In this document: positions 4,750-6,587 of the stretch, in pieces
Layout of the letters: each line of letters opens with the position of its first letter
How positions within the stretch are numbered: position 1 is the first letter of the stretch
Source of the DNA: Clostridia bacterium
GTDB lineage: Bacteria; Bacillota_A; Clostridia; Oscillospirales; CAG-382
Direction of reading: 5' to 3'
Length of the DNA stretch: 6,587 bases
NCBI GenBank assembly: GCA_017615235.1
Contig: JAGAAM010000112.1
Span: forward strand, 1-6,587
Position numbers and translations under genes: made by a program
Notes under the pieces: generated by a model
Seen by the model: the letters and a program-made list of their open reading frames with translations, nothing else
Databases searched by the model: none
Told to the model about the DNA's origin: nothing

Positions 4750-5658
4750 TTAACTGCTGTATTCGTTCATCGATTCTATATCAAGACCGTGGACGGCGAT
4801 ATTGATCGCTCCGGCGACGAGTTTTGCGACGTCGCGCGCCATCGAATCGGAATCCTTCGGCGCGACGAACAGATCCTTTCCCCGCCCCTGCGCAAGTTTT
4901 TTCGCCGGTTCGAGCCCCTGTTTGTCTTTCCCGAACGCCTCTTCGAGCAGATCGTAGGCAAGCGTGGCGGCGTCGACGACGGTGGGCACTCCGACGGAGA
5001 CGACTTTTACCCCGAGCGTATCGCGGTCGATCTTCATCCTGCGGTTGAATACACCCGATCCCGGACAGATACCGCCGTCGGAGATCTGGACGGTGGAGGC
5101 GAGGCGCGACAGCCTTCGCGAGGCGAGCGCGTCGATTATCACGACGCATTTGGGCTTTATCTCGTCGCAGACGCCGCGGATTATGTCGGCGCTCTCGATC
5201 CCGGTCTTGCCCAGTACTCCAGGCGAAAGCGCCGCGAGCGACGAAAAGCCGGCGCCCCTGTAAAGGTCCGGCGCCATGCCTTTTAAATGCCGGGTAACGA
5301 TAAGGCTCCGCACGGCGCGGGGACCGACAGAATCGGGTGTGATATCCTCGTTCCCGAGCCCGACGGCGAGCACGCACCCCTCGCCTTCCGGCAGTAACGG
5401 TTTCAGTTCATCCGCGACGGCTTTCACCGAACGTTCGAGGGCGTTTTTGTCGTTTTGCCAAAGCCTGTCGAGCTCGACGGTTATATATCGCCCGGCGGGC
5501 TTCCCCGCAAGTCTTTCTCCCTCGCCGCTTTTTACAACGGCGTCGGTTATATTGCAGCCGTATCTCATATAATCCCGCAGTTCGACGCCGTCGTCTTCGC
5601 CGCGTTCGGCGCGTATCTCGTGCGATTCAAGGGCAAGGTCGGTCATTTTTTCAAACAT
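4750..5658 (-). CDS. gpr: GPR germination endopeptidase (spore protease)
   Basis: GPR is made in the forespore as a zymogen and cleaves small acid-soluble spore proteins at germination, releasing amino acids and freeing the DNA. The protein has 302 residues. MTDLALESHE (5-14) matches the autocleavage region of the family. VGLGNEDITPDSVGP (99-113) holds one proposed catalytic Asp (Asp109), and VVIIDALASRRLSRL (172-186) the other (Asp176). Their spacing of 67 closely matches the Asp127/Asp193 pair reported for Bacillus megaterium. TVQISDGGICPGSGVFNRR (189-207) and VPTVVDA (224-230) are further signatures. It is about 70 residues shorter than Bacillus GPR, mainly from a reduced segment between about 240 and 262 and a very short N-terminus. 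The ATG has GGAG 8 bases upstream. It is divergent from rpsT and upstream of spoIIP. I see no convincing sigma-F/G promoter. Confidence 0.96.
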   Translation of the reverse strand: MFEKMTDLALESHEIRAERGEDDGVELRDYMRYGCNITDAVVKSGEGERLAGKPAGRYITVELDRLWQNDKNALERSVKAVADELKPLLPEGEGCVLAVGLGNEDITPDSVGPRAVRSLIVTRHLKGMAPDLYRGAGFSSLAALSPGVLGKTGIESADIIRGVCDEIKPKCVVIIDALASRRLSRLASTVQISDGGICPGSGVFNRRMKIDRDTLGVKVVSVGVPTVVDAATLAYDLLEEAFGKDKQGLEPAKKLAQGRGKDLFVAPKDSDSMARDVAKLVAGAINIAVHGLDIESMNEYSS

Positions 5659-5735
5659 AATCTGTACTCCGGTGTTTCAGTAACGTTATTATTCTGCCTT
5701 TTTTCAAAAAAAATATAATTTTTTAAAAACACCCC

Positions 5736-5764
5736 TTGCAAAAGCGAAATATTTGTGGTATATT
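5736..5764 (+). promoter_or_regulatory. Sigma-A promoter of rpsT
   Basis: TTGCAA (5736-5741), an exact 17-base spacer and TATATT (5759-5764) are preceded by TGG, giving an extended -10. Transcription would start near 5771, leaving a leader of about 28 bases. The leader carries AGGAGG at 5785-5790, 8 bases before the rpsT start. Confidence 0.82.
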
Positions 5765-5798
5765 ATACTGGTTCCAAAATAAACAGGAGGTAAATAAG

Positions 5799-6062
5799 AT
5801 GCCCAATATCAAATCGGCGAAAAAGCGCGTTAAAGTTACCGAAACCAAAACGCTGCAGAACAAAATGTTCAAATCCGCAATGAAAACTTCCATCAAGAAG
5901 TACAAAGCGGCGATAGCCGACGGCAATAAGGAGCTTGCTTCGCAGACCTATCTCGAAGCGGTCGGAATGGTCGATAAAGCGGTAGCAAAAGGAATTCTCC
6001 ACAAGAACAACGCTGCCCGTAAAAAGAGCCAGTACACGAAACTCCTCAACGGTTTAGCCTGA
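5799..6062 (+). CDS. rpsT: 30S ribosomal protein S20
   Basis: S20 is a primary 16S rRNA-binding protein of the small subunit, all alpha-helical and very basic. The 87-residue protein starts MPNIKSAKKRVKVTETKTLQN, has the typical Lys/Arg-rich three-helix composition, and ends in the family pattern KGILHKNNAARKKSQYTKLLNGLA. Length is normal for the family. The ATG at 5799 is chosen because a perfect AGGAGG sits 8 bases upstream; an in-frame extension to 5736 would run through the promoter and is not credible. It is transcribed divergently from gpr, as in Bacillus. No clear terminator separates it from the downstream tRNAs, so readthrough to the terminator at 6331-6355 is likely. Confidence 0.98.
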   Translation: MPNIKSAKKRVKVTETKTLQNKMFKSAMKTSIKKYKAAIADGNKELASQTYLEAVGMVDKAVAKGILHKNNAARKKSQYTKLLNGLA

Positions 6063-6070
6063 ATTATATT

Positions 6071-6084
6071 AGGCGTTTTCGCCT
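6071..6084 (+). other. Short hairpin after rpsT
   Basis: AGGCG (6071-6075) pairs with CGCCT (6080-6084) over a TTTT loop, 9 bases after the rpsT stop. There is no U-tract after it, so it is not a convincing terminator. It may stabilise the mRNA 3' end or mark a processing point between rpsT and tRNA-Gly. Confidence 0.4.
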
Positions 6085-6121
6085 TGCCCGAAAAACGGTA
6101 ACACCATGATTCGGGTCAAAC

Positions 6122-6195
6122 GCGGGTGTAGTTCAATGGCAGAATTCCAGCCTTCCAAGCTGGCCGTGCGGGTCCGATTCCCGTCACCCGCTCCA
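6122..6195 (+). tRNA. tRNA-Gly (anticodon TCC)
   Basis: This is a full 74-base cloverleaf with encoded CCA. The acceptor stem is GCGGGTG (6122-6128) with CACCCGC (6185-6191), the discriminator is T6192 and CCA is 6193-6195. The anticodon stem is CCAGC/GCTGG (6147-6151 with 6159-6163), with loop CTTCCAA giving anticodon TCC (6154-6156). The T-stem is GCGGG/CCCGT (6168-6172 with 6180-6184). The T-loop reads TCCGATT: the position equivalent to the near-universal U55 is C (6174). Confidence 0.97.
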
Positions 6196-6198
6196 AAA

Positions 6199-6248
6199 AA
6201 AGGCTAACGCCTTTGCCGTACCGAACCTCGGTATCAAGTACATACCGA
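6199..6248 (+). other. tRNA spacer with three small stems, two mutually exclusive
   Basis: AAAGGC/GCCTTT (6199-6204 with 6209-6214) forms a 6-bp hairpin with only TTT after it. TACCGA (6219-6224) pairs with TCGGTA (6228-6233). The same strand, extended to TCGGTAT (6228-6234), can instead pair with ATACCGA (6242-6248) just before tRNA-Arg. No promoter is evident, so the two tRNAs are probably in one transcript and these stems may guide processing. Confidence 0.4.
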
Positions 6249-6250
6249 AT

Positions 6251-6327
6251 GTGCCTTTAGCTCAGCAGGATAGAGCAACTGCCTTCTAAGCAGTAGGCCG
6301 AGGGTTCGAGTCCCCCAAGGCACGCCA
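6251..6327 (+). tRNA. tRNA-Arg (anticodon TCT)
   Basis: This is a 77-base cloverleaf with encoded CCA. The acceptor stem is GTGCCTT (6251-6257) with AAGGCAC (6317-6323), the discriminator is G6324 and CCA is 6325-6327. The D-stem is GCTC/GAGC. The anticodon stem is ACTGC/GCAGT (6278-6282 with 6290-6294), with loop CTTCTAA giving anticodon TCT (6285-6287). The T-loop TTCGAGT is normal. The T-stem is GAGGG (6300-6304) with CCCCC (6312-6316), leaving an A-C mismatch at its second pair. Bases 6307-6327 belong to a 22-base sequence repeated exactly at 6566-6587. Confidence 0.97.
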
Positions 6328-6328
6328 C
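6307..6328 (+). repeat. Direct repeat copy 1 (3' end of tRNA-Arg)
   Basis: These 22 bases run from the T-loop C through the T-stem, acceptor 3' strand, discriminator and CCA plus one base. They are identical to 6566-6587. The preceding bases differ (GTT here, AAA at copy 2), so the left boundary is defined; the right boundary of copy 2 is at the window edge. Confidence 0.95.
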
Positions 6329-6330
6329 GT

Positions 6331-6355
6331 AAAGGATCCGCAAGGATCCTTTTTT
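6331..6355 (+). terminator. Intrinsic terminator after tRNA-Arg
   Basis: A 9-bp perfect stem (AAAGGATCC at 6331-6339 with GGATCCTTT at 6344-6352) is closed by a GCAA tetraloop of the stable GNRA type and followed by T through 6355. It begins 4 bases after the tRNA CCA and would end the rpsT-tRNA transcript. Confidence 0.93.
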
Positions 6356-6378
6356 CGTTGTTGCGCGGGGACGAGAAC

Positions 6379-6423
6379 GGGCGCGTAGTGAATGACAGTC
6401 CGGGGGACTGTCAGAGCGCGCCT
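6379..6423 (+). repeat. Nested inverted repeat (long imperfect hairpin)
   Basis: The inner stem TGACAGTCC (6393-6401) pairs perfectly with GGACTGTCA (6405-6413) over a GGG loop. An outer stem GGCGCG (6380-6385) pairs with CGCGCC (6417-6422), with an unpaired segment on the left side. It lies inside the non-coding stretch after tRNA-Arg. Confidence 0.8.
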
Positions 6424-6480
6424 TGACTGCTGGACGCACGAGCGCCGCCGGGGCGGATAAAGCGAGTGCGGTCAGGCGCA

Positions 6481-6534
6481 GCGGTCGAAAAATCAACGGA
6501 AGCGCAAGCGAAAGGCGGATTTTTCGGGTACCGC
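6481..6534 (+). repeat. Second inverted repeat with bulge
   Basis: CGAAAAATC (6486-6494) pairs perfectly with GATTTTTCG (6518-6526). Outward, GCGGT (6481-6485) pairs with ACCGC (6530-6534) across a 3-base bulge. That same ACCGC can alternatively pair with GCGGT at 6545-6549, so two folds compete. GCGGTC occurs three times in the stretch (6468, 6481, 6545). Confidence 0.75.
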
Positions 6535-6565
6535 AAGGAGTGTCGCGGTCACGCCGTGCGAGAAA

Positions 6566-6587
6566 CGAGTCCCCCAAGGCACGCCAC
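6566..6587 (+). repeat. Direct repeat copy 2 (tRNA-Arg 3' end without a tRNA body)
   Basis: These 22 bases are identical to 6307-6328, but the preceding sequence cannot form the rest of a tRNA, so this is an orphan 3' end. It runs to the last base of the window, so its true right end and what follows are unknown. Confidence 0.95.

Follow-up and report, generated by a model that had tools for sequence, protein, structure and literature searches.

A non-coding interval behind a clostridial tRNA-Arg gene is a probable diverged member of a DNA cassette family addressed to tRNA 3' ends

The 6,587-nt stretch of clostridial DNA analysed here (the window) ends in a short non-coding interval behind a tRNA-Arg gene, and this interval probably belongs, as a diverged member, to a family of mobile DNA cassettes for which the 3' ends of tRNA and tmRNA genes serve as entry points and which carry a folded site resembling integron attC. 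Comparison with related genomes indicated that the unit separates the tRNA CCA from the native flank and brings a copy of tRNA positions C56 to A76 that restores the gene. The same comparisons indicated that its folded core is common to units at 27 other kinds of target, and that units of the family are found in tandem arrays and can close a block of foreign gene cargo on its downstream side. We infer that these cassettes are mobile. The family is defined by the folded core and by a 5' arm complementary to the tRNA, both of which were absent from the original prediction.

The upstream part of the window contains the end of thrS, a GPR-like protease gene and an rpsT-like gene, all named by reading rather than by family search. 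Two tRNA genes lie near its right end, tRNA-Gly(TCC) (6122-6195) and tRNA-Arg(TCT) (6251..6327, + strand; called by ARAGORN and by Rfam RF00005 at 66.9 bits), the latter being the host gene and putative entry site. The sequence CGAGTCCCCCAAGGCACGCCAC occurred exactly at 6307-6328 and at 6566-6587, a spacing of 259. The left copy of the direct repeat (6307-6327, +) is the final 21 bases of tRNA-Arg(TCT), and the right copy (6566..6586, +) repeats this 21-nt 3' end without a tRNA body. The meaningful length of the repeat is therefore the 21 bases from tRNA C56 to A76, base 22 (a C) being an extra match; at the right copy this one further matching base is 6587, the end of the window, so that the final base of the repeat closes the window. 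The original prediction had held that a 22-base exact repeat could not be chance, and both copies were confirmed: no third CGAGTCCCCCAAGGCACGCCAC site was present in the window even allowing three mismatches, and shuffled sequences gave a mean of 0 matches (n=200, with 0 in all 200). As it had also stated, the second copy has no tRNA body; neither ARAGORN nor Rfam called a tRNA there, and in an Rfam 15 scan of 5660-6587 the two tRNAs alone reached the gathering score. Its argument that about 237 bases are too short for a recombinase likewise stood, as the 237-base interval held no integrase-sized ORF. Only one listed ORF crosses the interval (106 aa, minus strand, 6257-6577); it extends antisense into the tRNA gene and was taken as chance. 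Phage and plasmid records gave one short weak match each to the interval, also taken as chance, and exact pattern scans of viral contigs gave 0 matches.

Using the GPR-like protein as query, we found 17 loci. The closest, L001, belongs to an independent uncultured Clostridia MAG, and its protein is 56% identical to the product of window 4753-5658. L001 likewise has tRNA-Gly and tRNA-Arg, the 3' end of tRNA-Arg recurs 151 bases further along, and the sequence runs 61 bases beyond that second copy. The core of the L001 interval aligned with the window core, while the arms and loops differed by compensatory changes. Among the other 16 loci, tRNA-Arg(TCT) lay in the fetched stretch of L002 only, with tRNA-His directly after it and no second copy. 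Of 29 loci examined in L001's family, 24 yielded a tRNA-Arg(TCT) that was read, and in 5 none was found. Within 1.5 kb of available sequence, 23 of these 24 had no tail copy (up to four mismatches) and one had a decayed copy, so the empty-site alleles that the original prediction had proposed to seek in relatives do exist. One of the 23 tail-less loci, L195 (G008), carried a truncated unit with a perfect arm. A cluster of tRNA-Gly, -Arg, -His, -Gln and -Lys common to three genomes of the order (L080, L081 and L083) gave a direct comparison: its tRNA-Arg is followed by a unit in L083 and L080 and by none in L081. The sequence after the CCA in L081 corresponds to what L083 and L080 have beyond the unit, making L081 an empty site. 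Elsewhere in L081 (6389-6570) the 3' part of tRNA-Val(TAC) was duplicated in part, with no unit core.

Read from the tRNA outward, the window unit begins with a terminator-like hairpin, identified by eye, directly after the gene (AAAGGATCC-GCAA-GGATCCTTT; 6331..6352, +); comparison of other units showed that such a stretch arrives with the inserted unit or is duplicated. The 5' arm GGGGACGAG (6367..6375, +), assigned from the sequence and the family rule, matches the reverse complement of the first bases of the tail copy in 7 of 9 positions, with GGGGAC (6367-6372) pairing with GTCCCC (6569-6574) and G6375 with C6566, and is degenerate relative to the arms of relatives. Stem 2 follows, formed by GGCGCG (6380..6385, +) and CGCGCC (6417..6422, +), and between its sides lies the conserved core hairpin AGTGAATGAC-AGT-CCGGGGG-ACT-GTCAGA (6387..6415, +), assigned by pattern and by model matches in relatives. 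The covariance model R1, described below, matched window 6360-6460 with an E value of 6.8e-13, the right end of this match being misplaced because of a nested insert. This palindromic insert enlarges the stem-4 region (6423..6565, +; approximate limits), as judged from the sequence, the fold and comparison with L133. By eye it resembles an insert in unit 2 of L133 (4540-4660). Palindromic inserts, apparently of at least two kinds when judged by eye, sat within the second small hairpin of units in the window, L133, L021, L026 and L049. Folded as DNA, the 237 bases between the copies beat their shuffles (z -4.2). The fold from arm to tail did not differ significantly from shuffles (z -1.55, with 13 of 200 shuffles equally good), and the expected closing stem was not formed in it. 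The core hairpin and inner stem are intact, and we read the window unit as a diverged, perhaps disabled, member of the family with a nested insert. As the contig stops on the tail, an array may follow 6587.

The extent of the family was examined with the hairpin pattern AGTGAATGAC-N3-CCGGGGG-N3-GTCAGA, allowing up to three mismatches, which was present in 24 of 63 genomes of L001's family; a reversed control pattern gave no matches. The search returned 30 loci, in 19 of which the final 16 bases of a tRNA were repeated exactly close to the hairpin; the other 11 had no such copy, some of them being cut by a contig end, decayed or in unusual contexts. From 18 chosen units at eleven tRNA kinds, none with long inserts, we made an alignment (A1) and from it the model R1. 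With at most 10 candidates scored per genome, R1 matched 111 of 394 genomes of L001's order at E <= 1e-3 (108 at E <= 1e-4); at E <= 1e-4, a threshold differing from that of the 111/394 figure, it matched 13 of 391 genomes drawn from the class, including G001, which had six R1 matches. Run over the fetched loci, which are the best matches first rather than a random sample and a part of all matched places, R1 gave 159 raw and 149 distinct matches at thresholds of 0.01 or 0.1, some weak matches and at least one cut duplicate (L122/L092) included. Where at least 150 nt of upstream sequence was present (134 units), a same-strand tRNA or tmRNA end lay within 150 nt upstream of 85 units and a same-strand tRNA or tmRNA within 1.5 kb of a further 24, mostly later array members (109 in total), while 22 had neither gene on the same strand within 1.5 kb and 3 stood 5' of tRNA-Leu(CAA) in the opposite orientation, these counts being uncorrected for chance proximity to tRNA genes. 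By position the targets comprised 28 kinds, 27 of tRNA plus tmRNA; the 88 units that combined a tail copy with a short core covered 27 kinds in 53 genomes. We found no description of such units in the open-access literature, insofar as its text was accessible.

Several arrangements departed from this pattern. The opposite-strand units 5' of tRNA-Leu(CAA) (L042 1453-1600, L043 1448-1720 and, as a weak match, L246 9618-9693) are perhaps a second insertion mode; those in L042 and L043 contain copies of the D-arm side and the anticodon arm of the tRNA. The core hairpin also occurred without a copied tRNA tail in L225 (about 1480-1610), L025, L032 and L033, suggesting that the core may belong to a wider family of palindromic repeats. 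Short coreless intervals bounded by longer tRNA copies were seen in L051 (between tails 2008 and 1648), L037 (1620-1840) and L237 (1162-1341), and these are perhaps a second family of miniature elements.

A typical unit of the family reads, in order, tRNA with CCA, often a terminator-like hairpin, 5' arm, inner stem, core hairpin, second small hairpin and C56-A76. Most units span about 100-260 bp from CCA to CCA and contain no gene. Among perfect tails (n=67), identity leftward from the CCA extended over 21 bases in 55 cases, 22 in 10 and 23 in 2; 16 of 110 units with an upstream tRNA or tmRNA had no tail copy within three mismatches, some of these being partial or cut matches. The 5' arm was the exact reverse complement of the first eight bases of the unit's own tail (C56-C63) in 82 of 94 units, and differed by one mismatch in 9 more. 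Against the different 8-mers of other tRNAs the arm was perfect in 0.1% of 10,436 comparisons and had one mismatch in 36.7%, the latter figure because T-arms are alike. The two bases preceding the tail copy were mostly GG, AG, AA or GT and were TT, as in the tRNA, in only 2 of 94, suggesting that exchange probably takes place at or after the T55/C56 step.

Tandem arrays were found at several tRNA genes, with five tails at tRNA-Glu (L037), three at tRNA-Ser (L022), four at tRNA-Leu (L060) and four at tRNA-Ala (L107), the gene's own end counted. Cores of the same genome at different targets had a mean identity of 0.687 (48 pairs), a value reached in 0 of 1000 shuffles, compared with 0.582 when genome labels were permuted within targets. 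One 70-nt core was identical at tRNA-Ser(GCT) and tRNA-Ser(GGA) of G029. A nearest-neighbour count, a weak test, found 24 cores closer within the genome, 18 closer by target and 1 tie.

Six intervals between units, or from a tRNA to a unit or tail, carried genes; these were met during reading of contexts and do not form a defined set. Behind tRNA-Ser(GGA), units framed a DNA methyltransferase and a TdeIII-type restriction enzyme, a type II pair (L109 4596-8408, G043:C16). A 1176-aa SNF2 helicase with defence-library matches to DpdE, DrmD and PDC-S61 separated tRNA-Lys(CTT) from a unit whose tail is mutated (L235 924-6471, G129:C13), and two AT-rich genes of 346 and 188 aa with no Pfam or PADLOC match lay between tRNA-Leu(CAA) and a unit (L120 17152-19430, G004:C28). 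A GGDEF protein was found at tRNA-Leu in L133, where the second unit is a weak match (E 0.059), and 23S-IVP-like and cytidine-deaminase-like proteins at tmRNA in L130. The sixth interval held a 172-aa protein with no Pfam match between two tRNA-Val tails (L232 100-940, G001:C1); its right tail has no core, and a similar hairpin follows both tails. Cargo GC was below that of the rest of the locus in 6 of 6 measured cases, for L235 against 435 bases only. The last tail was diverged in L109 and L235. No integrase was found among 10 cargo proteins scanned, which are part of the cargo ORFs. The suggestion in the original prediction of a miniature trans-mobilised cassette, or the first unit of an array, is thus well supported by the relatives as regards cassette and array (arrays, empty sites, cargo and a core shared by many tRNAs); trans-mobilisation by a tyrosine recombinase is plausible, with no recombinase tied to the units.

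We next considered whether the fold is one of DNA or of RNA. In A1, the four helices were paired in 484 of 484 cells, with double changes in 15 of 27 pairs, and shuffled and slid structures did far worse; A1 is not an independent test because the structure was drawn from its own chosen units. Selection on RNA favours G-U over A-C, a preference not expected of DNA pairing or palindrome correction. Counted on alignments fitted to the model, the 2452 cells that make up helices 1-3 in 111 distinct units included 17 G.T, 17 A.C and 67 other mismatches. The control, acceptor and T stems of 97 distinct tRNAs of the same loci (1164 cells), gave 93 G.T and 10 A.C (Fisher p 2e-6 for G.T/A.C in unit helices against tRNA stems). 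Helix 4, which holds 48 T-G cells and 1 G-T cell, was left out of the count; column pair 68-90 is T-G in 10 of 18 A1 units, and we ascribe the T-G excess to this one wrongly drawn pair. The core helices thus have no G-U preference, unlike the tRNA stems, and the fold looks like one of DNA rather than RNA. We had also considered by eye whether the core holds a kink-turn or another RNA motif, and dropped the idea on this result. The G-U result separates DNA from RNA; it does not separate selection for a folded site from template-switch mutation.

A search for recombinases covered 50 genomes, 30 carriers and 20 non-carriers, some assemblies of which may be incomplete. All 50 had PF00589 matches. 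None had the integron integrase TIGR02249 over its cut-off, while all 50 gave weaker tyrosine-recombinase matches in that search. The carriers G001, G004, G105 and G280 each had a single PF00589 match at E <= 1e-10, subject to the same caution on completeness. That of G001 is a 337-aa protein, which we read as Xer-like; a comparison of 30 proteins showed its orthologs (42-75% identity) in carriers as well as in six non-carriers, so presence of the gene does not separate the two groups. The single matches of G001 and G004 are orthologs of this Xer-like gene. An integrase gene 1.7 kb from a unit in G029 was rejected as an element gene, being the same Xer-like gene beside tmRNA and an ORF read as smpB. 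Y1 (TnpA_REP) transposases were not associated with the units, occurring in 9 of 30 carriers and 7 of 20 non-carriers (Fisher p 0.76). A tyrosine recombinase gene lay near units in G233:C48, and in L122 3067-19901 (G348:C5) tRNA-Tyr was occupied by an ordinary 16.5-kb element that encodes Phage_integrase and Mob_Pre, uses the same tail as the units and has two units directly behind its right tail. The host Xer-like gene and the integrases of visiting elements are candidates for the recombinase.

Other explanations can be set against a mobile cassette family with a folded site. The units could be ordinary MITE-like derivatives of tRNA-specific elements, each moved by its element's own double-strand-specific tyrosine integrase, the core being a palindromic passenger whose folding is irrelevant. 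The tail from C56 to A76 is a usual att core of tRNA-specific integrases, and the 16.5-kb integrase element in L122 uses this tail with units behind it. We nevertheless think this unlikely, as one core family occupies 28 target kinds with a 5' arm that follows the host tRNA, while tRNA-specific integrases are as a rule tied to one tRNA; further, the four carriers named above have one PF00589 match each in their perhaps incomplete assemblies, G001 together with its six R1 matches. Distinctly less probable is a structured RNA, transcribed from the unit behind the tRNA, whose tRNA-like 3' end would act as a mimic or regulator. A conserved, covarying structure with a tRNA 3' end and CCA at its terminus would fit such an RNA, as would those units that follow a very short spacer with no clear terminator (L080, L083). 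The scarcity of G.T, no commoner than A.C in helices 1-3, unlike in tRNA stems, speaks against it, as do the terminator-like hairpins (by eye) in front of many of the units read, the presence and absence of units between relatives, their tandem arrays and gene cargo, and the lack of any Rfam family for the unit at gathering score.

We give an equally small chance to a palindromic repeat that spreads without recombinase, its copies arising by template switching, slippage and homologous exchange at tRNA genes and its arms being kept complementary by mutation alone. Template switching homogenises the arms of inverted repeats and can create hairpins, according to two studies (PMC8604942, PMC8794818), and the tail-less core hairpins of L025, L032, L033 and L225 would be in keeping with such an origin. 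Alone, however, it does not copy one core to unrelated tRNA and tmRNA genes, and it leaves unexplained both the presence of C56-A76 at the right end with native flank beyond and the framing of foreign genes. An assembly artefact at the contig end is very improbable: although the final base of the repeat is the end of the window, and 9 of 149 distinct matches have a sequence end within 100 nt behind the unit, independent assemblies, L001 included, show the arrangement with sequence beyond it. Contigs presumably break behind units because tails and units are repeats.

Returning to the mobile cassette with a folded site, we propose that the base of the unit (5' arm and tail) and the core would together form a folded single-stranded or cruciform DNA site. 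It would function as attC does in integrons, the tRNA T-arm taking the role of attI. Joining of the two at the T-loop would fall to a tyrosine recombinase, possibly a host Xer-like enzyme or the integrases that visiting elements bring. On a move to another tRNA the tail would be supplied by the new gene, and the 5' arm would change to fit it, the simplest route being template-switch correction of the imperfect palindrome. Perfect pairing of arm and tail could also come from template-switch mutation instead of use of the fold. We suggest only tentatively that this may be a new class of cassette capture, in which a folded-DNA site with a base re-tailored to each tRNA or tmRNA lets one core address many tRNA genes and stack empty and gene-bearing cassettes, defence genes included, without an integron integrase and perhaps through a host Xer-like recombinase.

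The nearest known parallel in layout is with integron cassettes and attC sites, including those of CALINs. In both, direct repeats bound each cassette with an inverted partner inside, and the site folds into a paired base, an inner stem and a variable end. Both form arrays, some gene-bearing, with the site at the downstream end of the cargo, and in both an imperfect palindrome keeps its structure while its sequence changes, as in the fully paired 484 cells of the units. Unlike integron cassettes, the units enter at the T-arm of tRNA or tmRNA, have 21 nt of tRNA as their direct repeat and bear an inverted arm tailored to the tRNA in question; no integron integrase exceeded the cut-off in 50 genomes. 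The R box of attC has a GTT triplet on the top strand and AAC on the bottom, as described in PMC2727003; no GTT stood directly before the tail copy of the units (0/94). With tRNA-specific integrative elements the units share a T-loop-to-CCA copy that restores the gene, a native flank displaced to the right and, in some, low-GC cargo. They differ in that most are geneless and about 100-260 bp, in the single folded core over 28 kinds and in the inverted arm, and the window interval has no integrase gene of its own.

Other small or tRNA-addressed elements are more distant. REP/BIME palindromes, which are mobilised by RAYT (Y1) transposases, resemble the units in their small size, palindromy, intergenic position and short conserved motif next to a hairpin. 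The units differ in standing at tRNA ends with a copied tRNA tail and in having no association with Y1 genes. IMEX are integrative elements that exploit the host Xer and enter dif; a similar strategy would explain mobility without an own recombinase, and a putative Xer-like gene is conserved in the carriers, but the entry site of the units is the tRNA T-arm and not dif. Tycheposons are, like the units, cargo-bearing and addressed to tRNA genes; they are much larger, and to our knowledge they share no folded non-coding core with a tRNA-tailored arm.

If the units are mobile as proposed, many tRNA genes in these Clostridia would be entry ports of a single cassette system, one with an integron-like layout built from different parts, and capture of cassettes through folded DNA would extend beyond integrons. 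A recombination site could then be rewritten to match a new target, and tRNA 3' ends could hold arrays of foreign genes, with likely anti-phage genes among them. The units may also be part of the reason why some contigs of these bacteria stop directly behind a tRNA gene.
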